Both the position numbers and the translations under genes were made by a program. Positions 3,284 to 19,629 of a stretch of 20,207 nt of DNA are shown one piece after another. The notes below the pieces were generated by a model, which had not been told where the DNA came from, did no database searches, and saw only the letters and a program-made list of their open reading frames with translations. Source of the DNA: a virus; the IMG/VR virus record IMGVR_UViG_3300009161_000298, positions 1 through 20,207 of that record; one strand, given 5' to 3'. Every line of letters begins with the position of its first letter. The stretch's first letter is position 1.

Positions 3284-5611
3284 ATGGCAACCACAGACCA
3301 AGCAACCCAAACAGCAGTAAACCAATGGTTTGCGGCAAATCCTAATGCAACGCCAGAACAGGTTGTATCAATTATTCAATCTAATGGTGGATTAACAACT
3401 AATCTTGCTGGTGCGCTTGCTAATTATTATGGAACTGATGTTAATCAAATTCAAACTGGTTATAGTCAATTAACAACTACACCACCTCCAGCAAAGTTCT
3501 CTACTCCTTTGCCTCTTGAACAAGGAAGGGCTACTGGTACTGGTACTGCTATTCCAAACTATGTTGCTCCTACTGGAACTCCAACAGGAGGCTTACTTAC
3601 GCCTTCAACTGCTTCATCAGTGGCAACACCTAGCGCATTGCAAAACAGTGTAAATCAATGGTTTGATAAAAATCCAAATGCAACGCCACAACAAATATCA
3701 GATGTTATAAAAGCATCTGGTGGATTAACGCCAGAAGGAGCACAAGCGATTGCTAATAGAGTAGGTACTACTGCACAAGCAGTTCAATCCGCTTATGCAT
3801 CGTTAACTCCCGCTACTCCTACATACAGTTCTTATTTAGACCAAATTAAACAAACAAATCCTGCCGCTTATGCAAAGATTGCAGATATTGCAAAATACAG
3901 CGCAGATGAAAAATTTGGTGGAAAAATTCAAGACTATCAGGCTCAGTTATTAACATCTATAAATCCTGAGAAGGCGGGCATTCCAAAACAATTACAGTTT
4001 TCAAGTCAAGAACCTGTGCGTGGAATTGACCCAGACACAGGATCACCAATTACATACATACCTCCAACACAGGTATTAAATGCTAAAGTTACACCGATTG
4101 AAGAAGGTGGTTTTCGTTCAACAACACCTACTAACATAAATGGTGTTCCTATATATGCTAAATATGATAGCAAAGGACAAGTTACAGGATATGAGGGAGA
4201 CCCCTCTGTTACTACTTGGACAAGTGGTCAAGACCGCATAATTGGTAGTTGGGATGCACAAGGAAATGCTAAACCTGTACGTACAACTAACAATGATGGT
4301 AATTTTAATCTTAAAGGTATAGGGCTTTTAGCGAGTCTTGTCGGTGGTGCTTATGGCTTAGATGCTCTTACTGGTGGTTCTATTGGTGGTAGTACTCTTT
4401 TACCAGAAAGTCCATTTTTAAGTGGCATGGCGGCAGAAAATGCCGTGTCGGGTGCTGGTGTTGCTGGATTGGGTCTTGGTTCTGGAATTCCAGTAGGAGC
4501 GGCGGCAGGTTCGACAACAGGACTTTTTAATCCTATTACTTCTGGTTTATCTACTCTTGGTTCTGCACTTACTTCAGGATCAACTACTGGTATTCCTGCT
4601 GGCCTTACTGATATTGCTACCAAAGTTGGTACAGGAGTCGCTACTGGCCTTATTACTAGCGGTTTAACTGGTGGAACTGGTGGTGGAACTGGTATAAATC
4701 CTAACCTCGTACAAGGTGGAGTGCAGACCGCTGGTGGAATAATACAAAGCCAAGCATCCAAAGATGCGGCACTTAAAGCACAACAAGACATATTGGCGGC
4801 AACACAACAAGCAACTACAGGCGCACAGTTTCGTCCAGTAGGTGTTACAACTCGTTTTGGTTCATCTCAGTTCCAAATTGATCCTAAAACTGGTCAGTTA
4901 GTAAGTGCTGGTTATACAGCCGCTCCTGAGATTGTTTCTGCTCAAAATCAACTAATGAATTTGGGTGCTGGTTATTTAGCACAAACACCTGAACAAGTTG
5001 CACAACAGTATCTTGCAAAACAGTATGAATTGCTTGATCCAAGCCGTCAAAGACAGTTGGCAGACATTAGAAATCAGAATTTACAAACTGGTCGTGGTGG
5101 TTTGTCAGTAGGCTCTACTGGTTTGCGTCCAAGTGGCGCACAAGGCTTGATGGGTAGCAATCCTGAGATGCAAGCCTATTACAACGCTTTGGCACAACAA
5201 GATGCGGCATTAGTAGCACAAGCACAACAAGCAGGTCAACAACAAGTCACCTATGGTGCAGGATTGTTTGGTCAGGCTGGAACACTAGAGAGTTTGGCTC
5301 AACAACCATTCACTTTGGGTACAGGTCTTGGAACTTCTATCTCTACTGCTGGTGCTAATGCAGGTCGATTGAATCTTGCTGGTCAAGATATTGCTTCAGG
5401 GTATGGTACATCTTCTAATGCTACTAGAAATCCTTATGCAACATTACTTGGTGCTGTTGGAGGCCCAACTTCAACATTAGGAGCAGGAATAAATAAATAT
5501 TTAACAGATTATTTAGCAACTAATAAGACTTCTGATATTTTTGATACATCAAAATACGGAACAGGAGTAGAAGGATTTCAAAAAGCATTAGATGATATTT
5601 ACGGAACATAA
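3284..5611 (+). CDS. Large Gly/Ala/Gln-rich internal virion protein (putative ejection protein)
   Basis: This 775-aa protein opens with two copies of a ~49-residue module (residues 12-60 and 123-171; each has VNQWF, NPNATP and GGLT), separated by a Pro/Thr linker. A globular region follows (about 180-345). A Gly/Ala-rich hydrophobic stretch (about 345-490) could insert in membranes, and a Gln/Ala-rich helical C-terminal half contains EQVAQQYLAKQYELLDPSRQ. No transglycosylase or peptidase motif is visible. Position after the nozzle and before two similar large proteins suggests an internal core or DNA-delivery protein, analogous to T7 gp14-16 or P22 gp7/16/20. That is inference from size, composition and order. 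AAGGA lies upstream of the start. Confidence 0.65.
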   Translation: MATTDQATQTAVNQWFAANPNATPEQVVSIIQSNGGLTTNLAGALANYYGTDVNQIQTGYSQLTTTPPPAKFSTPLPLEQGRATGTGTAIPNYVAPTGTPTGGLLTPSTASSVATPSALQNSVNQWFDKNPNATPQQISDVIKASGGLTPEGAQAIANRVGTTAQAVQSAYASLTPATPTYSSYLDQIKQTNPAAYAKIADIAKYSADEKFGGKIQDYQAQLLTSINPEKAGIPKQLQFSSQEPVRGIDPDTGSPITYIPPTQVLNAKVTPIEEGGFRSTTPTNINGVPIYAKYDSKGQVTGYEGDPSVTTWTSGQDRIIGSWDAQGNAKPVRTTNNDGNFNLKGIGLLASLVGGAYGLDALTGGSIGGSTLLPESPFLSGMAAENAVSGAGVAGLGLGSGIPVGAAAGSTTGLFNPITSGLSTLGSALTSGSTTGIPAGLTDIATKVGTGVATGLITSGLTGGTGGGTGINPNLVQGGVQTAGGIIQSQASKDAALKAQQDILAATQQATTGAQFRPVGVTTRFGSSQFQIDPKTGQLVSAGYTAAPEIVSAQNQLMNLGAGYLAQTPEQVAQQYLAKQYELLDPSRQRQLADIRNQNLQTGRGGLSVGSTGLRPSGAQGLMGSNPEMQAYYNALAQQDAALVAQAQQAGQQQVTYGAGLFGQAGTLESLAQQPFTLGTGLGTSISTAGANAGRLNLAGQDIASGYGTSSNATRNPYATLLGAVGGPTSTLGAGINKYLTDYLATNKTSDIFDTSKYGTGVEGFQKALDDIYGT
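3317..3796 (+). repeat. Coding duplication: two copies of a ~49-residue module
   Basis: Within the 775-aa virion protein, codons 12-60 (3317-3463) and 123-171 (3650-3796) encode related helical segments. Both contain VNQWF, NPNATP, a Q-rich helix, GGLT and a final aromatic turn ending GY or AY. The DNA copies have diverged at many third positions, so the duplication is old. Confidence 0.8.
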
Positions 5612-16819: not shown

Positions 16820-16869
16820 TAGTTTGAAACACGGCTAGATGCGGATTGATCCCCTCATCGAAAAGAGAA

Positions 16870-16916
16870 CAGACCCCTCCTGCCGAGGTTTCTTTCAAGG
16901 GTCTATTTTGGGTCTG
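16870..16916 (+). promoter_or_regulatory. Alternative leader hairpins before the replication gene
   Basis: CAGACCC (16870-16876) can pair perfectly with GGGTCTG (16910-16916), or its last six bases can pair with GGGTCT (16899-16904). An inner CCTC/GAGG stem lies at 16876-16888. The outer stem ends six bases before the ATG at 16923, where no strong Shine-Dalgarno is visible, so folding could affect translation. Pairing was found by eye only. Confidence 0.35.
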
Positions 16917-16922
16917 AAAACA

Positions 16923-17678
16923 ATGCACTATTACCAATTCAATATTGGGGACTACGCTTCCCATACTCGGCATTTAAATGTCGTAGAAGACTGCGCCTAT
17001 CGCAGATTGTTGGACTTTTACTATCTTCACGAAAAGCCAATAAAACATCACGATATTGCGCGGCAGATCAATATGCGTGAACACGAACAAGAGGTCTTGT
17101 CAGTGCTTAACGAGTTCTTTTTGTCCACAGTCGATGGGTTTGTCAGTCCACGGGCAAACAAGGAAATTGAACATTTTCACTCGAAGATTGAACAAGCATC
17201 CAAGGCAGGTAAAGCGTCTGCTGAACGGAGGTTCAACGCCCGTTCAACGGATGTTCAACCAACCAATAACCATAAACCAATAACCATTAACCAAGAACCA
17301 AATATAGATATATGTCCACCTAGCGGTGAACCAGAGGAAAAGACAGGTTTACCAAAATGTAGTCATCAAGAGGTGATTGACCTTTACCACCAAAAACTTC
17401 CCACCCTGAGAAAGGTAGAGGTTTGGAATGATGCTAGGAAAGGTTATCTCAGACAAAGATGGCGAGATGTATCCCAAGAGTTAGCCCTTGAAAAACCAAT
17501 TCAAACAGAAGATGTGCTTTTGTGGTGGTCTGACTTCTTCACCCACATAGGCCAATCCAAGTTCCTGACAGGCAGAGTTAATGACAAATCAGGTCGGGCT
17601 TTTACGGCTGACCTTGAATGGATACTGAAACCAAGCAATTTTGCAAAGATTATCGAAGGGAAATATCATGGCATTTAA
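16923..17678 (+). CDS. DUF1376 replication-type protein
   Basis: This 251-aa protein starts MHYYQFNIGDYASHTRHLNV followed by EDCAYRRLLDFYYLHEKPI, the DUF1376 signature, which fixes the start at 16923 rather than the in-frame ATG at 16839. The N-terminal ~90 residues form a winged-helix-like domain. A polar linker follows (about 95-145, RRFNARSTDVQPTNNHKP). The C-terminal domain (150-250) contains VWNDARKGYLRQRWRD, WWSDFFTHIGQSKFLTGR and LEWILKPSNFAKIIEG. Phage proteins with this plan are usually placed as replication initiators or helicase-loading factors. That role is inferred from domain order and the neighbouring genes. Confidence 0.8.
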   Translation: MHYYQFNIGDYASHTRHLNVVEDCAYRRLLDFYYLHEKPIKHHDIARQINMREHEQEVLSVLNEFFLSTVDGFVSPRANKEIEHFHSKIEQASKAGKASAERRFNARSTDVQPTNNHKPITINQEPNIDICPPSGEPEEKTGLPKCSHQEVIDLYHQKLPTLRKVEVWNDARKGYLRQRWRDVSQELALEKPIQTEDVLLWWSDFFTHIGQSKFLTGRVNDKSGRAFTADLEWILKPSNFAKIIEGKYHGI

Positions 17679-17958
17679 TGGATTTAGAACCAAAAAAGAC
17701 GAACCCATTGATGACACAAGGTTTTTGCTTTGTGTCGAGCCTGGCTGCGGACAATTGTGGACTATCAATCTTGGTAAACCACTATGTTCATACCACCAAT
17801 GGAAAGACGATAAACCATTTGTCTATGCCCAATACACAGATTTTGGTCAAAAGTATTTTGGTGATCCAAAAGCCTGGGCAAAGCGACTTGTTGAAAAACA
17901 TGAGATGGGACTACCCGTTGCCAAGATTGCCTTGGAATTTGCTAGGGAGGCTTTGTAA
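17668..17958 (+). CDS. Small Cys/His protein, possible zinc finger
   Basis: This 96-aa protein begins MAFNGFRTKKDEPIDDTRFL. I chose the ATG at 17668 because GAAGGG lies seven bases upstream; the frame also extends further upstream. LCVEPGCGQLW and, about 20 residues on, PLCSYHQW give a C-x4-C...C-x2-H set suitable for one zinc ion. The C-terminal half is helical (KAWAKRLVEKHEMGLPVAKI). It overlaps the DUF1376 gene by 11 nt, and its TAA overlaps the ATG of the next ORF (TAATG). Its role is unknown; DNA or RNA binding beside replication genes is plausible. Confidence 0.7.
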   Translation: MAFNGFRTKKDEPIDDTRFLLCVEPGCGQLWTINLGKPLCSYHQWKDDKPFVYAQYTDFGQKYFGDPKAWAKRLVEKHEMGLPVAKIALEFAREAL

Positions 17959-18740
17959 TGTCATGGTTGATAAGCAATGCCTTAATGAACTCGCTCTCTT
18001 TGCAGGGGCTGGTGGTGGAGTCCTTGGTGGACACCTCCTTGGATGGAGAACAGTTTGCGCTGTCGAGTGGGAAGCCTATCCCGCAAGCGTACTTGTCGCC
18101 CGACAAAATGATGGAATTCTCCCGCCTTTCCCGATTTGGGATGACGTTCAAACCTTTGACGGACACCCTTGGAGAGGGGTTATCGATGTCATCAGTGGTG
18201 GCTTTCCATGTCAAGACATTAGTGCCGCAGGAAAAGGTGCAGGAATTGATGGAGAACGATCTGGAATGTGGGGACAAATGGCGCGCATCATTCACGAAGT
18301 TCGACCCAAATTCGTCTTTGTGGAAAACTCACCAATGCTCACTAGTCGGGGACTTGGACGAGTTCTTGGAGACTTGGCCAACATGGGGTTTGATGCGGAA
18401 TGGGGAGTGTTGGGACATGACAGATTCGGTGGTCAGCACAGGAGAGACAGAATTTGGATTACTGCCTACACCTGTAAGAAGTCTTTTCGCTCATTGGTCA
18501 AGCGCCAAGGCAAAGTTCTCGAACAATGGAAAAAGAAAGAGCGGAGTGAAGGTTGGGTCGATTTTGTGGTGGGAGATGACGGAACAACACCTCCGTCTTG
18601 GAGGATTAGAGGAAAAGAAGATGATTCCAGACCCATCATGTGGAGAAGTAGTGATGGGATGGCCGATGGGGTGGACAGAATTGCGGCCATTGGCAATGGA
18701 CAAGTTCCAAGAGTGGCGGCAGCAGCATGGAGTTTGTTAA
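17958..18740 (+). CDS. Second long ORF in another frame over the methyltransferase gene
   Basis: This 260-aa ORF overlaps nearly all of the methyltransferase gene in a different frame of the same strand. It starts in TAATG at the previous gene's stop, seven bases after AGGGAGG (17944-17950), and stops directly against the next ATG (TAA|ATG at 18741), as a true operon member would. The protein contains KMMEFSRLSRFGMTFKPLTD, SSLWKTHQCSLVGDLDEFLE followed by TWPTWGLMRNGECW, then GLLPTP and GWPMGWTELRPLAMDKFQEW. From memory these strings belong to phage proteins deposited on their own, often labelled methyltransferase-like. If real, function is unknown; the alternative is an ORF shadowing a constrained gene. 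Confidence 0.5.
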   Translation: MSWLISNALMNSLSLQGLVVESLVDTSLDGEQFALSSGKPIPQAYLSPDKMMEFSRLSRFGMTFKPLTDTLGEGLSMSSVVAFHVKTLVPQEKVQELMENDLECGDKWRASFTKFDPNSSLWKTHQCSLVGDLDEFLETWPTWGLMRNGECWDMTDSVVSTGETEFGLLPTPVRSLFAHWSSAKAKFSNNGKRKSGVKVGSILWWEMTEQHLRLGGLEEKKMIPDPSCGEVVMGWPMGWTELRPLAMDKFQEWRQQHGVC

Positions 18741-18754
18741 ATGACCAAAACTGA
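17963..18754 (+). CDS. DNA cytosine C5 methyltransferase
   Basis: Starting at ATG 17963 this 263-aa protein has all main C5 motifs. Motif I is LALFAGAGGGVLGG (residues 10-23), which binds AdoMet. Motif IV is GGFPCQDIS with the nucleophile Cys83. Motif VI is VFVENSP with Glu121. Motif VIII is QHRRDRIWI (158-166). A short recognition region follows (about 168-225), and the closing motif is AIGNGQVPRVAAAAW. It would methylate cytosine in phage DNA, probably to escape host restriction; no partner endonuclease is nearby. The ATG is 12 bases from AGGGAGG, farther than ideal. The frame is also open well upstream without recognisable sequence. A second ORF covers the gene in another frame. Confidence 0.9.
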   Translation: MVDKQCLNELALFAGAGGGVLGGHLLGWRTVCAVEWEAYPASVLVARQNDGILPPFPIWDDVQTFDGHPWRGVIDVISGGFPCQDISAAGKGAGIDGERSGMWGQMARIIHEVRPKFVFVENSPMLTSRGLGRVLGDLANMGFDAEWGVLGHDRFGGQHRRDRIWITAYTCKKSFRSLVKRQGKVLEQWKKKERSEGWVDFVVGDDGTTPPSWRIRGKEDDSRPIMWRSSDGMADGVDRIAAIGNGQVPRVAAAAWSLLNDQN

Positions 18755-18986
18755 AGCCCATGAAATCCTTAACCAAATCAGAGAAGGGCAGTCCATGTCC
18801 CTATCTCTCACAAATCAAGCCTTGGAACGGACAGGAGACATTTGTGGAGTATTTGACGAATCACTATGCCCTGATGGCAATGAATCCCGCAACGATAGAG
18901 CAAGCCCGACTCCGTACCAAGGAGTTGAAGGGAGATTTTCCTACTCTAGGTATCTTGATTGCAGCCAAAATCAAGGAGTTTCGTAA
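18741..18986 (+). CDS. Small protein, N-terminal half convincing
   Basis: This 81-aa ORF starts at an ATG directly after the TAA of the frame-shifted ORF and 14 nt inside the methyltransferase end. The first ~33 residues (MTKTEAHEILNQIREGQSMS, then LSLTNQALERTGD) look like small phage proteins I recall that end soon after the TGD. The rest is polar and unconvincing, overlapping the next small gene in another frame. Its TAA overlaps the zinc-ribbon start as TAATG. Either the protein has been extended after losing an earlier stop, or the distal half is only passage to the coupled stop. Confidence 0.5.
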   Translation: MTKTEAHEILNQIREGQSMSLSLTNQALERTGDICGVFDESLCPDGNESRNDRASPTPYQGVEGRFSYSRYLDCSQNQGVS

Positions 18987-19017: not shown

Positions 19018-19144
19018 TGTAAAACACACAAAGGATGGACTTAGAACTAGGGAATGTTTCAATAATCATCGATTTAGGACTCAGGAGATATTGGTTTCAG
19101 AGCCTAAACCCAAGAGAAAATGGAAAATAAGGGATAGAGAATGA
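18986..19144 (+). CDS. Zinc-ribbon protein (NrdR-like ribbon only)
   Basis: This 52-aa protein reads MKCPLCQAPTDVKHTKDGLR then TRECFNNHRFRTQEI, ending in a Lys/Arg-rich tail. Cys3-x2-Cys6 and Cys24-x3-His28 form a zinc ribbon resembling the N-terminal part of NrdR, without its ATP-cone. ATG 18986 is chosen because AAGGAG lies seven bases upstream and the upstream stop overlaps as TAATG; the in-frame ATG at 18959 lacks this. The basic tail suggests nucleic-acid binding. Its stop overlaps the resolvase start as ATGA. Confidence 0.75.
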   Translation: MKCPLCQAPTDVKHTKDGLRTRECFNNHRFRTQEILVSEPKPKRKWKIRDRE

Positions 19145-19629
19145 TATATATCGGAATAGACCCAGGCTCAGTATCGGGTGCAGTAGGTGCAGTTTTATCC
19201 AATGGGGATTATTTGGACAGTTTTATGATTGAACACCAAGATAAGCATATTCTGCCAATGGTGTTTAAAAATATGATCCTGAGATTGGTTGACCCAAAAG
19301 AAGGGGCTGAAATTTGTTGTGAACTGGTTCACTCAATGCCAAATCAGGGTGTGGCAAGCACGTTCCAATTTGGTAGGGCTGTGGGTGTTATTACGGCAGT
19401 TTGCACCCTGACTAATTACCCCCTACACATGGTTTCGCCCCAAAAATGGAAAAAACACTTTCATCTATCAAGTGATAAAGGGGAAGCATTAGATTGCGCT
19501 CGAATGTTGTGGCCACAAGCGCCCCTTAAAAGAAAAAAAGATATAAATATCGCAGAGAGTTTACTCATAGCCGAATATTGGCGAGATTGCATCAATGGAA
19601 AAATCAGAGACAAAAGCCCTACACGTTAA
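19141..19629 (+). CDS. RuvC-like Holliday junction resolvase
   Basis: This 162-aa RNase-H-fold protein has the N-terminal strand MIYIGIDPGSVSGAVG with catalytic Asp7, CCELVHSMPNQGVASTFQFG with Glu61, and a C-terminal KKDINIAESLLIAEYW with Asp134 and Glu139, as in phage RuvC-type resolvases. VSPQKWKKHFHL (about 98-109) is also typical of the family. It would cut branched recombination or replication intermediates before packaging. The length is normal. It follows the zinc-ribbon gene with an ATGA overlap and overlaps the next gene by 35 nt. It pairs functionally with the ERF/Exo module on the other strand. Confidence 0.88.
   Translation: MIYIGIDPGSVSGAVGAVLSNGDYLDSFMIEHQDKHILPMVFKNMILRLVDPKEGAEICCELVHSMPNQGVASTFQFGRAVGVITAVCTLTNYPLHMVSPQKWKKHFHLSSDKGEALDCARMLWPQAPLKRKKDINIAESLLIAEYWRDCINGKIRDKSPTR

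Follow-up and report, generated by a model that had tools for sequence, protein, structure and literature searches.

An almost fully overlapping second frame in a phage C5-cytosine methyltransferase gene, probably encoding a second subunit of the enzyme

Organization of the locus and its two proteins

The DNA analyzed here, referred to as the window, is a 20,207-base virus record. It contains two complete ORFs which lie on the same (+) strand and overlap in different frames: alpha, a C5 methyltransferase, and beta, which is in the +1 frame relative to alpha, i.e. beta codon positions 1, 2 and 3 are alpha's 2, 3 and 1. This arrangement had been described in an earlier note on the same DNA, and its coordinates, frames and flanks were confirmed. 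The elements of the locus read from the sequence are the following.

17944-17950 (+): AGGGAGG, ribosome-binding-site-like, upstream of the beta ATG (by 7 nt) and of the alpha ATG (by 12 nt)
17956-17960 (+): TAATG, in which the stop of the upstream ORF overlaps the beta start
17958-18740 (+): beta ORF, ATG at 17958 to TAA at 18740, 260 codons (260 aa)
17963-18754 (+): alpha ORF, C5 methyltransferase, ATG at 17963 to TGA at 18754, 263 codons (263 aa)

The start region was also found as the note had it: the two spacings of AGGGAGG, the TAATG at the previous stop, and an ATG directly after the beta stop (at 18741) are all present. A translational coupling of beta to the upstream ORF is possible through the TAATG overlap. 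The alpha frame is free of stops upstream as far as 17618; the conserved protein starts near 17963. The locus is flanked by a replication initiator-like gene (16839-17678) and by a Holliday-junction resolvase gene (19141-19629), and lysis, tail, exonuclease and annealing genes are found elsewhere in the window. The window methyltransferase is an orphan enzyme in a phage replication module; the annotated gene neighbourhoods that we viewed, on plasmids and in E. coli prophages, name no restriction enzyme beside the methyltransferase. At another place in the window, a 146-codon ATG ORF (4351-4791, - strand) lies antisense to the gene at 3284-5611 and has no PHROG match.

A second pair of ORFs, again on the same strand and in different frames, is located directly after the methyltransferase.

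18741-18986 (+): first ORF of the second pair, MTKTEAHEILNQIREG..., 81 aa
18760-19017 (+): second ORF of the second pair, MKSLTKSEKGSPCPY...NHYALMAMNPATIEQARLRTKEL..., 85 aa

Neither protein of this pair has a PHROG match. The viral relatives of the second protein (48 unique ones) all have an uninterrupted first frame across 62 codons (48/48), with 0 stops compared with 59 expected in total from synonymous shuffles.

Separate database searches of the two translations of the methyltransferase locus assigned alpha to PF00145 and beta to PHROG 1008. Alpha matches the PF00145 profile (C5-cytosine DNA methyltransferase) with E=1.5e-28 and 100.6 bits (cut-off 22), over profile positions 5-169 of 324 only. 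It holds motifs I, IV (PCQ), VI (EN), VIII and X in order, placed on the translation as follows.

17996-18019 (+): alpha motif I, LFAGAGGG (conserved columns)
18197-18223 (+): alpha motif IV, GGFPCQDIS, with catalytic Cys83 (invariant F81, P82 and C83)
18323-18334 (+): alpha motif VI, ENSP (invariant E121 and N122)
18437-18460 (+): alpha motif VIII, HRRDRIWI (invariant R161 and R163)
18686-18709 (+): alpha motif X, AIGNGQVP (conserved columns), which adjoins and overlaps the motif IX-like segment of beta

Short PF00145 matches of this kind are present in every one of nine bacterial genomes with beta loci and end at 163-190, compared with 316-324 for the full-length canonical methyltransferases of the same genomes. 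The alpha structure model is confident up to about residue 190, poor at 191-250, and matches M.HhaI and M.HaeIII over about 175 residues. A target-recognition region (TRD) and motif IX were not found in the alpha chain: the Pfam match ends before them, the chain is near neutral over the corresponding bases (see below), and the model is poor at 191-250. Without a recognisable motif IX and with a near-neutral TRD, alpha alone would be an incomplete enzyme.

Beta belongs to PHROG 1008 ("DNA methyltransferase"), with E=1.5e-14 for the window protein and down to 4.3e-60 for a Mycobacterium phage relative. Its candidate motif IX was placed by a weak profile match and by comparison with one-chain relatives.

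18633-18692 (+): beta motif IX-like segment, PSCGEVVMGWPMGWTELRPL

In a profile-profile comparison the beta consensus GGxLNPxWVEWLMGWPxGWTDLKPL aligns to the canonical motif IX RRLTPxECxRLQGFP; this is the only such match of beta to canonical methyltransferases, and it is short and weak (17 columns, E=0.084). Pfam gave nothing relevant for beta or ten of its relatives, and the beta profile gave a chance-level match only against PDB sequences. The AlphaFold model of beta has a mean pLDDT of 55, with poor confidence over residues 1-110 and a better one over 111-120 and 171-260; Foldseek returned no match to it below E=2.4, and no fold is claimed. The location of motif IX away from the catalytic chain, in the second chain, is supported by its position beside motif X, by the selection pattern and by the one-chain relatives.

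Conservation of the beta frame, its start and its spread

For the single window gene, the chance of an open beta frame depends on the null model. When the own synonymous codons of alpha were permuted the beta frame was open in 7.7% of trials, a conservative figure because alpha codons are already shaped by the overlap; when alpha was recoded to match the codon usage of 13 further genes of the window, a mean of 11.1 stops was obtained and no frame was open in 20,000 trials. The two values bracket the answer. The estimate of about 1e-5 proposed in the earlier note agrees with the codon-usage recoding.

We then considered 80 viral loci, for the choice of which only the alpha protein was used. All 80 have an open beta frame, from a start near the alpha start to near the alpha end or the contig edge; the third frame of these loci contains 11-25 stops. 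Over 85 unique loci there are 0 stops in the overlap, compared with 4.7 expected per gene under synonymous permutation. As the viral scan for canonical phage methyltransferases gave one locus only, 23 canonical C5 methyltransferases from bacterial genomes were used as a control, and these have 5-33 stops in the corresponding frame. A chance ORF is ruled out by these comparative data and controls: 80/80 and 85/85 loci are open, canonical methyltransferases never. Stops in the beta frame of homologous methyltransferases, or simulations in which the methyltransferase by itself keeps that frame open, had been named in the earlier note as grounds for abandoning dual coding; both tests have been run, and neither refuted the proposal. 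One locus (L011) has 9 stops in the beta frame, all past the point where the frames swap with respect to the near-identical L006, and these were taken as a single-base frameshift or sequencing error. The beta profile also found 80 bacterial-genome loci. Both frames are uninterrupted across the match in 74 of these; the remaining six (L123, L131, L151, L156, L157 and L191) look like broken or frame-shifted copies.

The beta start is conserved as well. In most relatives the beta ATG spans an alpha Asn-Glu (AAT GAG). This Asn codon is AAT without exception (121 of 121 loci), compared with about 54 expected from alpha's other Asn codons (72/72 viral loci with 33.8 expected, 49/49 bacterial-genome loci with 20.3 expected), although the test probabilities should not be read literally since the relatives are not independent. 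In 12 loci including the window, the beta start, M[ST]W[LI]IS, is made by different bases and overlies alpha residues such as MVDKQC rather than NELALF. Where the alpha start is at least 13 nt upstream (16 loci), an SD-like element is present 6-10 nt before the beta ATG in 13 cases, inside the alpha coding sequence. This sequence evidence indicates that beta is translated, and both proteins are probably made from one mRNA.

Beta-profile loci are distributed over genomes of Pseudomonadota, Verrucomicrobiota, Desulfobacterota and other bacteria, and are present on Leptospira, Acinetobacter and Nostoc plasmids. In E. coli PT62 (L234, 5001-5738) a rare prophage-type copy adjoins RuvC-like, DnaT-like and terminase genes; 4 of 5426 complete genomes have a match. 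The same arrangement with a shorter beta was observed in one phage each of Paenibacillus, Porphyromonas and Bacteroides: the beta frame has stops N-terminally and is then open through LLPTP-like and motif IX-like segments, which fits the weak constraint on the beta N-terminus described below. PHROG 1008 ties the window beta to actinophage relatives, whose annotation lists the two parts as separate genes with short overlaps. The Mycobacterium phages Wildflower and Wile have motif IX as well as motif X in the beta frame, and each half is annotated as a methylase gene of its own. Gordonia phage Trax gp78 (L232, 924-1787) and Mycobacterium phage Silvy gp53 (L231, 843-2495) are one-chain methyltransferases, with a C-terminus corresponding to the beta region. 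The +1 frame of Silvy and Trax still contains beta-like remnants (SETWPTSGMTRNG, SGTWPRMG), and the actinophage relatives (Silvy, Trax, L233 and L034) suggest that the layout has switched between two frames and one.

Where records were checked for frame, most of them annotate a single one, usually alpha. In Pseudomonas phage phPA-G (L036, 1501-2229) and Vibrio phage 1.236.O (L339, 1501-2199) beta alone is annotated, as "hypothetical protein", and the methyltransferase is omitted. The statement in the earlier note that beta motifs occur in separately deposited phage proteins was well founded: the beta frame has its own annotation ("hypothetical protein") in some phage records, and PHROG 1008 is the family of beta. 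No description of dual coding in phage methyltransferases was found in the literature searched, which does not prove its absence.

The selected reading along the gene

Substitutions between relatives were sorted according to whether they change alpha, beta, both or neither, and overlap-aware rates were computed. The canonical control gave a dNN/dNS of about 0.9, with saturation at the wobble positions (0.28 identity observed, 0.27 expected). In the dual-coding loci the identity at 4-fold wobble positions of alpha is 0.67 compared with 0.33 expected, and it rises to 0.93 over alpha 221-240, i.e. the bases encoding beta motif IX. Two further conserved beta segments and the variable region of the gene were placed as follows.

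18120-18140 (+): beta conserved segment SRLSRFG, overlying alpha residues 53-60
18321-18344 (+): beta conserved segment WKTHQCSL, with W122 and T124 nearly invariant in beta
18459-18632 (+): target-recognition (variable) region, read in beta as LLPTP..., alpha near neutral from substitution rates

Wobble identity is 0.80 (0.32 expected) over alpha 41-60, which includes the SRLSRFG bases, and 0.83 over alpha 121-140, which includes those of WKTHQCSL. Over the N-terminal part of alpha, alpha is strongly constrained and the dNN/dNS of beta equals that of the control (0.89 for the first 75 or so beta residues, about 0.9 for the control). Even there, alpha-silent changes are rarer than in control methyltransferases of similar divergence (p 0.29-0.43 vs 0.71), and the N-terminal beta segment 41-62 is conserved too. 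As a whole, the N-terminal half of beta is much more weakly constrained than its C-terminal half. The ratio dSN/dSS is imprecise because SS sites are few.

Over the TRD and motif IX, beta-silent changes (pNS) reach 0.41 per site compared with 0.12 for alpha-silent changes (pSN), a ratio of about 3.5 in 22 alignable pairs. In the same pairs beta pNN/pNS is 0.24 [0.18-0.31] and alpha pNN/pSN is 0.83 [0.67-1.00]. The target-recognition region alone gives a pNS of 0.456 and a pSN of 0.145, with alpha pNN/pSN at 0.86 [0.69-1.05] (22 pairs). Alpha is constrained again over motif X. This pattern shows an alternating custody, in which alpha is the selected reading over motifs I-VIII and X, and beta over the TRD and motif IX. 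The predicted structures of alpha and beta agree with it, as an independent line. The overlap-aware test found selection in both frames; with the frame open in all alpha-selected relatives and the start protected, this supports the old, conserved dual-coding region that the earlier note had suspected.

The long beta proteins of two loci (L025 and L030) contain repeated WPTPxxx/LPTP units in the target-recognition region, where alpha reads VADA/MADA-type segments over the same bases. These repeats are possibly duplicated recognition modules.

A putative two-chain enzyme and its alternatives

We regard it as highly probable, from the comparisons above, that a single phage C5-cytosine DNA methyltransferase is made up of alpha and beta as two subunits, translated separately from overlapping frames. 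Alpha would bind AdoMet and carry the catalytic Cys, with motifs I-VIII and motif X; the C-terminal half of beta would supply the target-recognition region and motif IX. The two chains are predicted to bind each other and to be both needed for methylation, as reported for M.EcoHK31I. Given the orphan setting in a replication module, the enzyme probably protects phage DNA from host restriction, or else may mark it.

The two-subunit reading was compared first with that of a real but separate protein, i.e. one that regulates or inhibits alpha or has a phage function of its own. Beta is conserved with its own start, and its conserved segment 41-62 would not be needed by a pure C-terminal methyltransferase domain, which speaks for a separate protein. 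This alternative would however leave alpha as an incomplete enzyme, the C-terminal region of beta corresponds to the C-terminus of one-chain methyltransferases, and in the 80 genome loci beta always accompanies an alpha-type frame, a few broken copies aside; we hold this alternative to be unlikely. Because beta, and not alpha, is selected over the TRD and motif IX, beta most likely supplies the missing parts of alpha's enzyme, and the proposal of the earlier note that beta modulates the methyltransferase or acts alone is the less likely one. A further possibility is a single chain made by programmed frameshifting, from alpha (I-VIII) to beta (TRD-IX) and back to alpha for motif X. The selected reading does pass from alpha to beta to alpha in motif order, but two shifts of opposite sign would be required, beta has its own conserved ATG and SD-like elements, and the actinophage records give each part a gene of its own, with short overlaps, which makes this improbable. 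An untranslated beta, with a frame kept open by alpha's amino acids, codon usage or base composition, could appeal to the permutation of the window's own codons. It has against it the 85 open relatives of 85 and the control methyltransferases that never are, the protected start codon, and the TRD and motif IX, where beta-silent changes outnumber alpha-silent ones roughly 3-fold; we give it very little credit. A hidden homing endonuclease, for which the out-of-frame HNH gene inside a mycobacteriophage methylase, ShiLan, is a precedent (PMC11855218), is hardly conceivable here, as ShiLan is an insertion with a patchy distribution and the beta frame spans the catalytic core and is present in all alpha-selected relatives. 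No HNH match for beta was found in Pfam or PHROGs, and there is no insertion.

C5 methyltransferases made of two polypeptides are known, M.EaeI among them, and the small chain of M.EcoHK31I is read from an alternative frame overlapping the large chain. In M.EcoHK31I the large chain contains motifs I-VIII and X as well as the predicted TRD, and only motif IX is in the small chain; M.AquI is split between motifs VIII and IX, its small chain having both IX and X (PMC3404938). By these descriptions the window enzyme is like M.EcoHK31I in having motif IX out of the catalytic chain and a second chain in an overlapping frame. It differs from it in three respects: beta overlaps alpha almost completely (260 vs 263 codons), the enzyme is a phage orphan with no restriction enzyme seen nearby, and selection puts the target-recognition region in beta instead of the large chain. 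With M.AquI it shares two chains split between motifs VIII and IX, but motif X (AIGNGQVP) remains on the alpha chain and the overlap of the frames is nearly complete; among the actinophage relatives, L034 and L233 have IX and X in beta and resemble M.AquI in this. ShiLan, too, is a case of a phage methylase gene with a further protein in a different frame, except that it is an inserted homing element and the beta frame of the window is the enzyme's own core. The "DNA methyltransferase" label of PHROG 1008, which holds beta, is silent on the overlap with a catalytic subunit in another frame. The dual-coded phage enzyme would be a widespread variant of a rare two-chain kind, with its specificity region and motif IX in the overlapping frame.

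It seems likely, on balance, that these loci form a large, phylum-spanning class of phage C5 methyltransferases, in which one enzyme is split over two almost fully overlapping frames with alternating custody: the catalytic core and motif X would be selected in one frame and the specificity region and motif IX in the other, so that specificity evolves in beta while alpha drifts over the same bases, annotation having generally recorded one half. It is rare for an enzyme core to be dual-coding over about 250 codons and to remain so in viral and bacterial loci of several phyla, and here the frame under selection can be followed position by position. Should beta prove to be an obligatory subunit, the annotation of many phage and prophage "DNA cytosine methyltransferases" covers only half of the enzyme; cloning of alpha without beta would then be expected to give an inactive protein, and specificity predictions for orphan phage methyltransferases would need to be based on beta. 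Such a naturally split methyltransferase family may also be of use in split-enzyme targeting, for which M.EcoHK31I has already been employed (PMC3439449).
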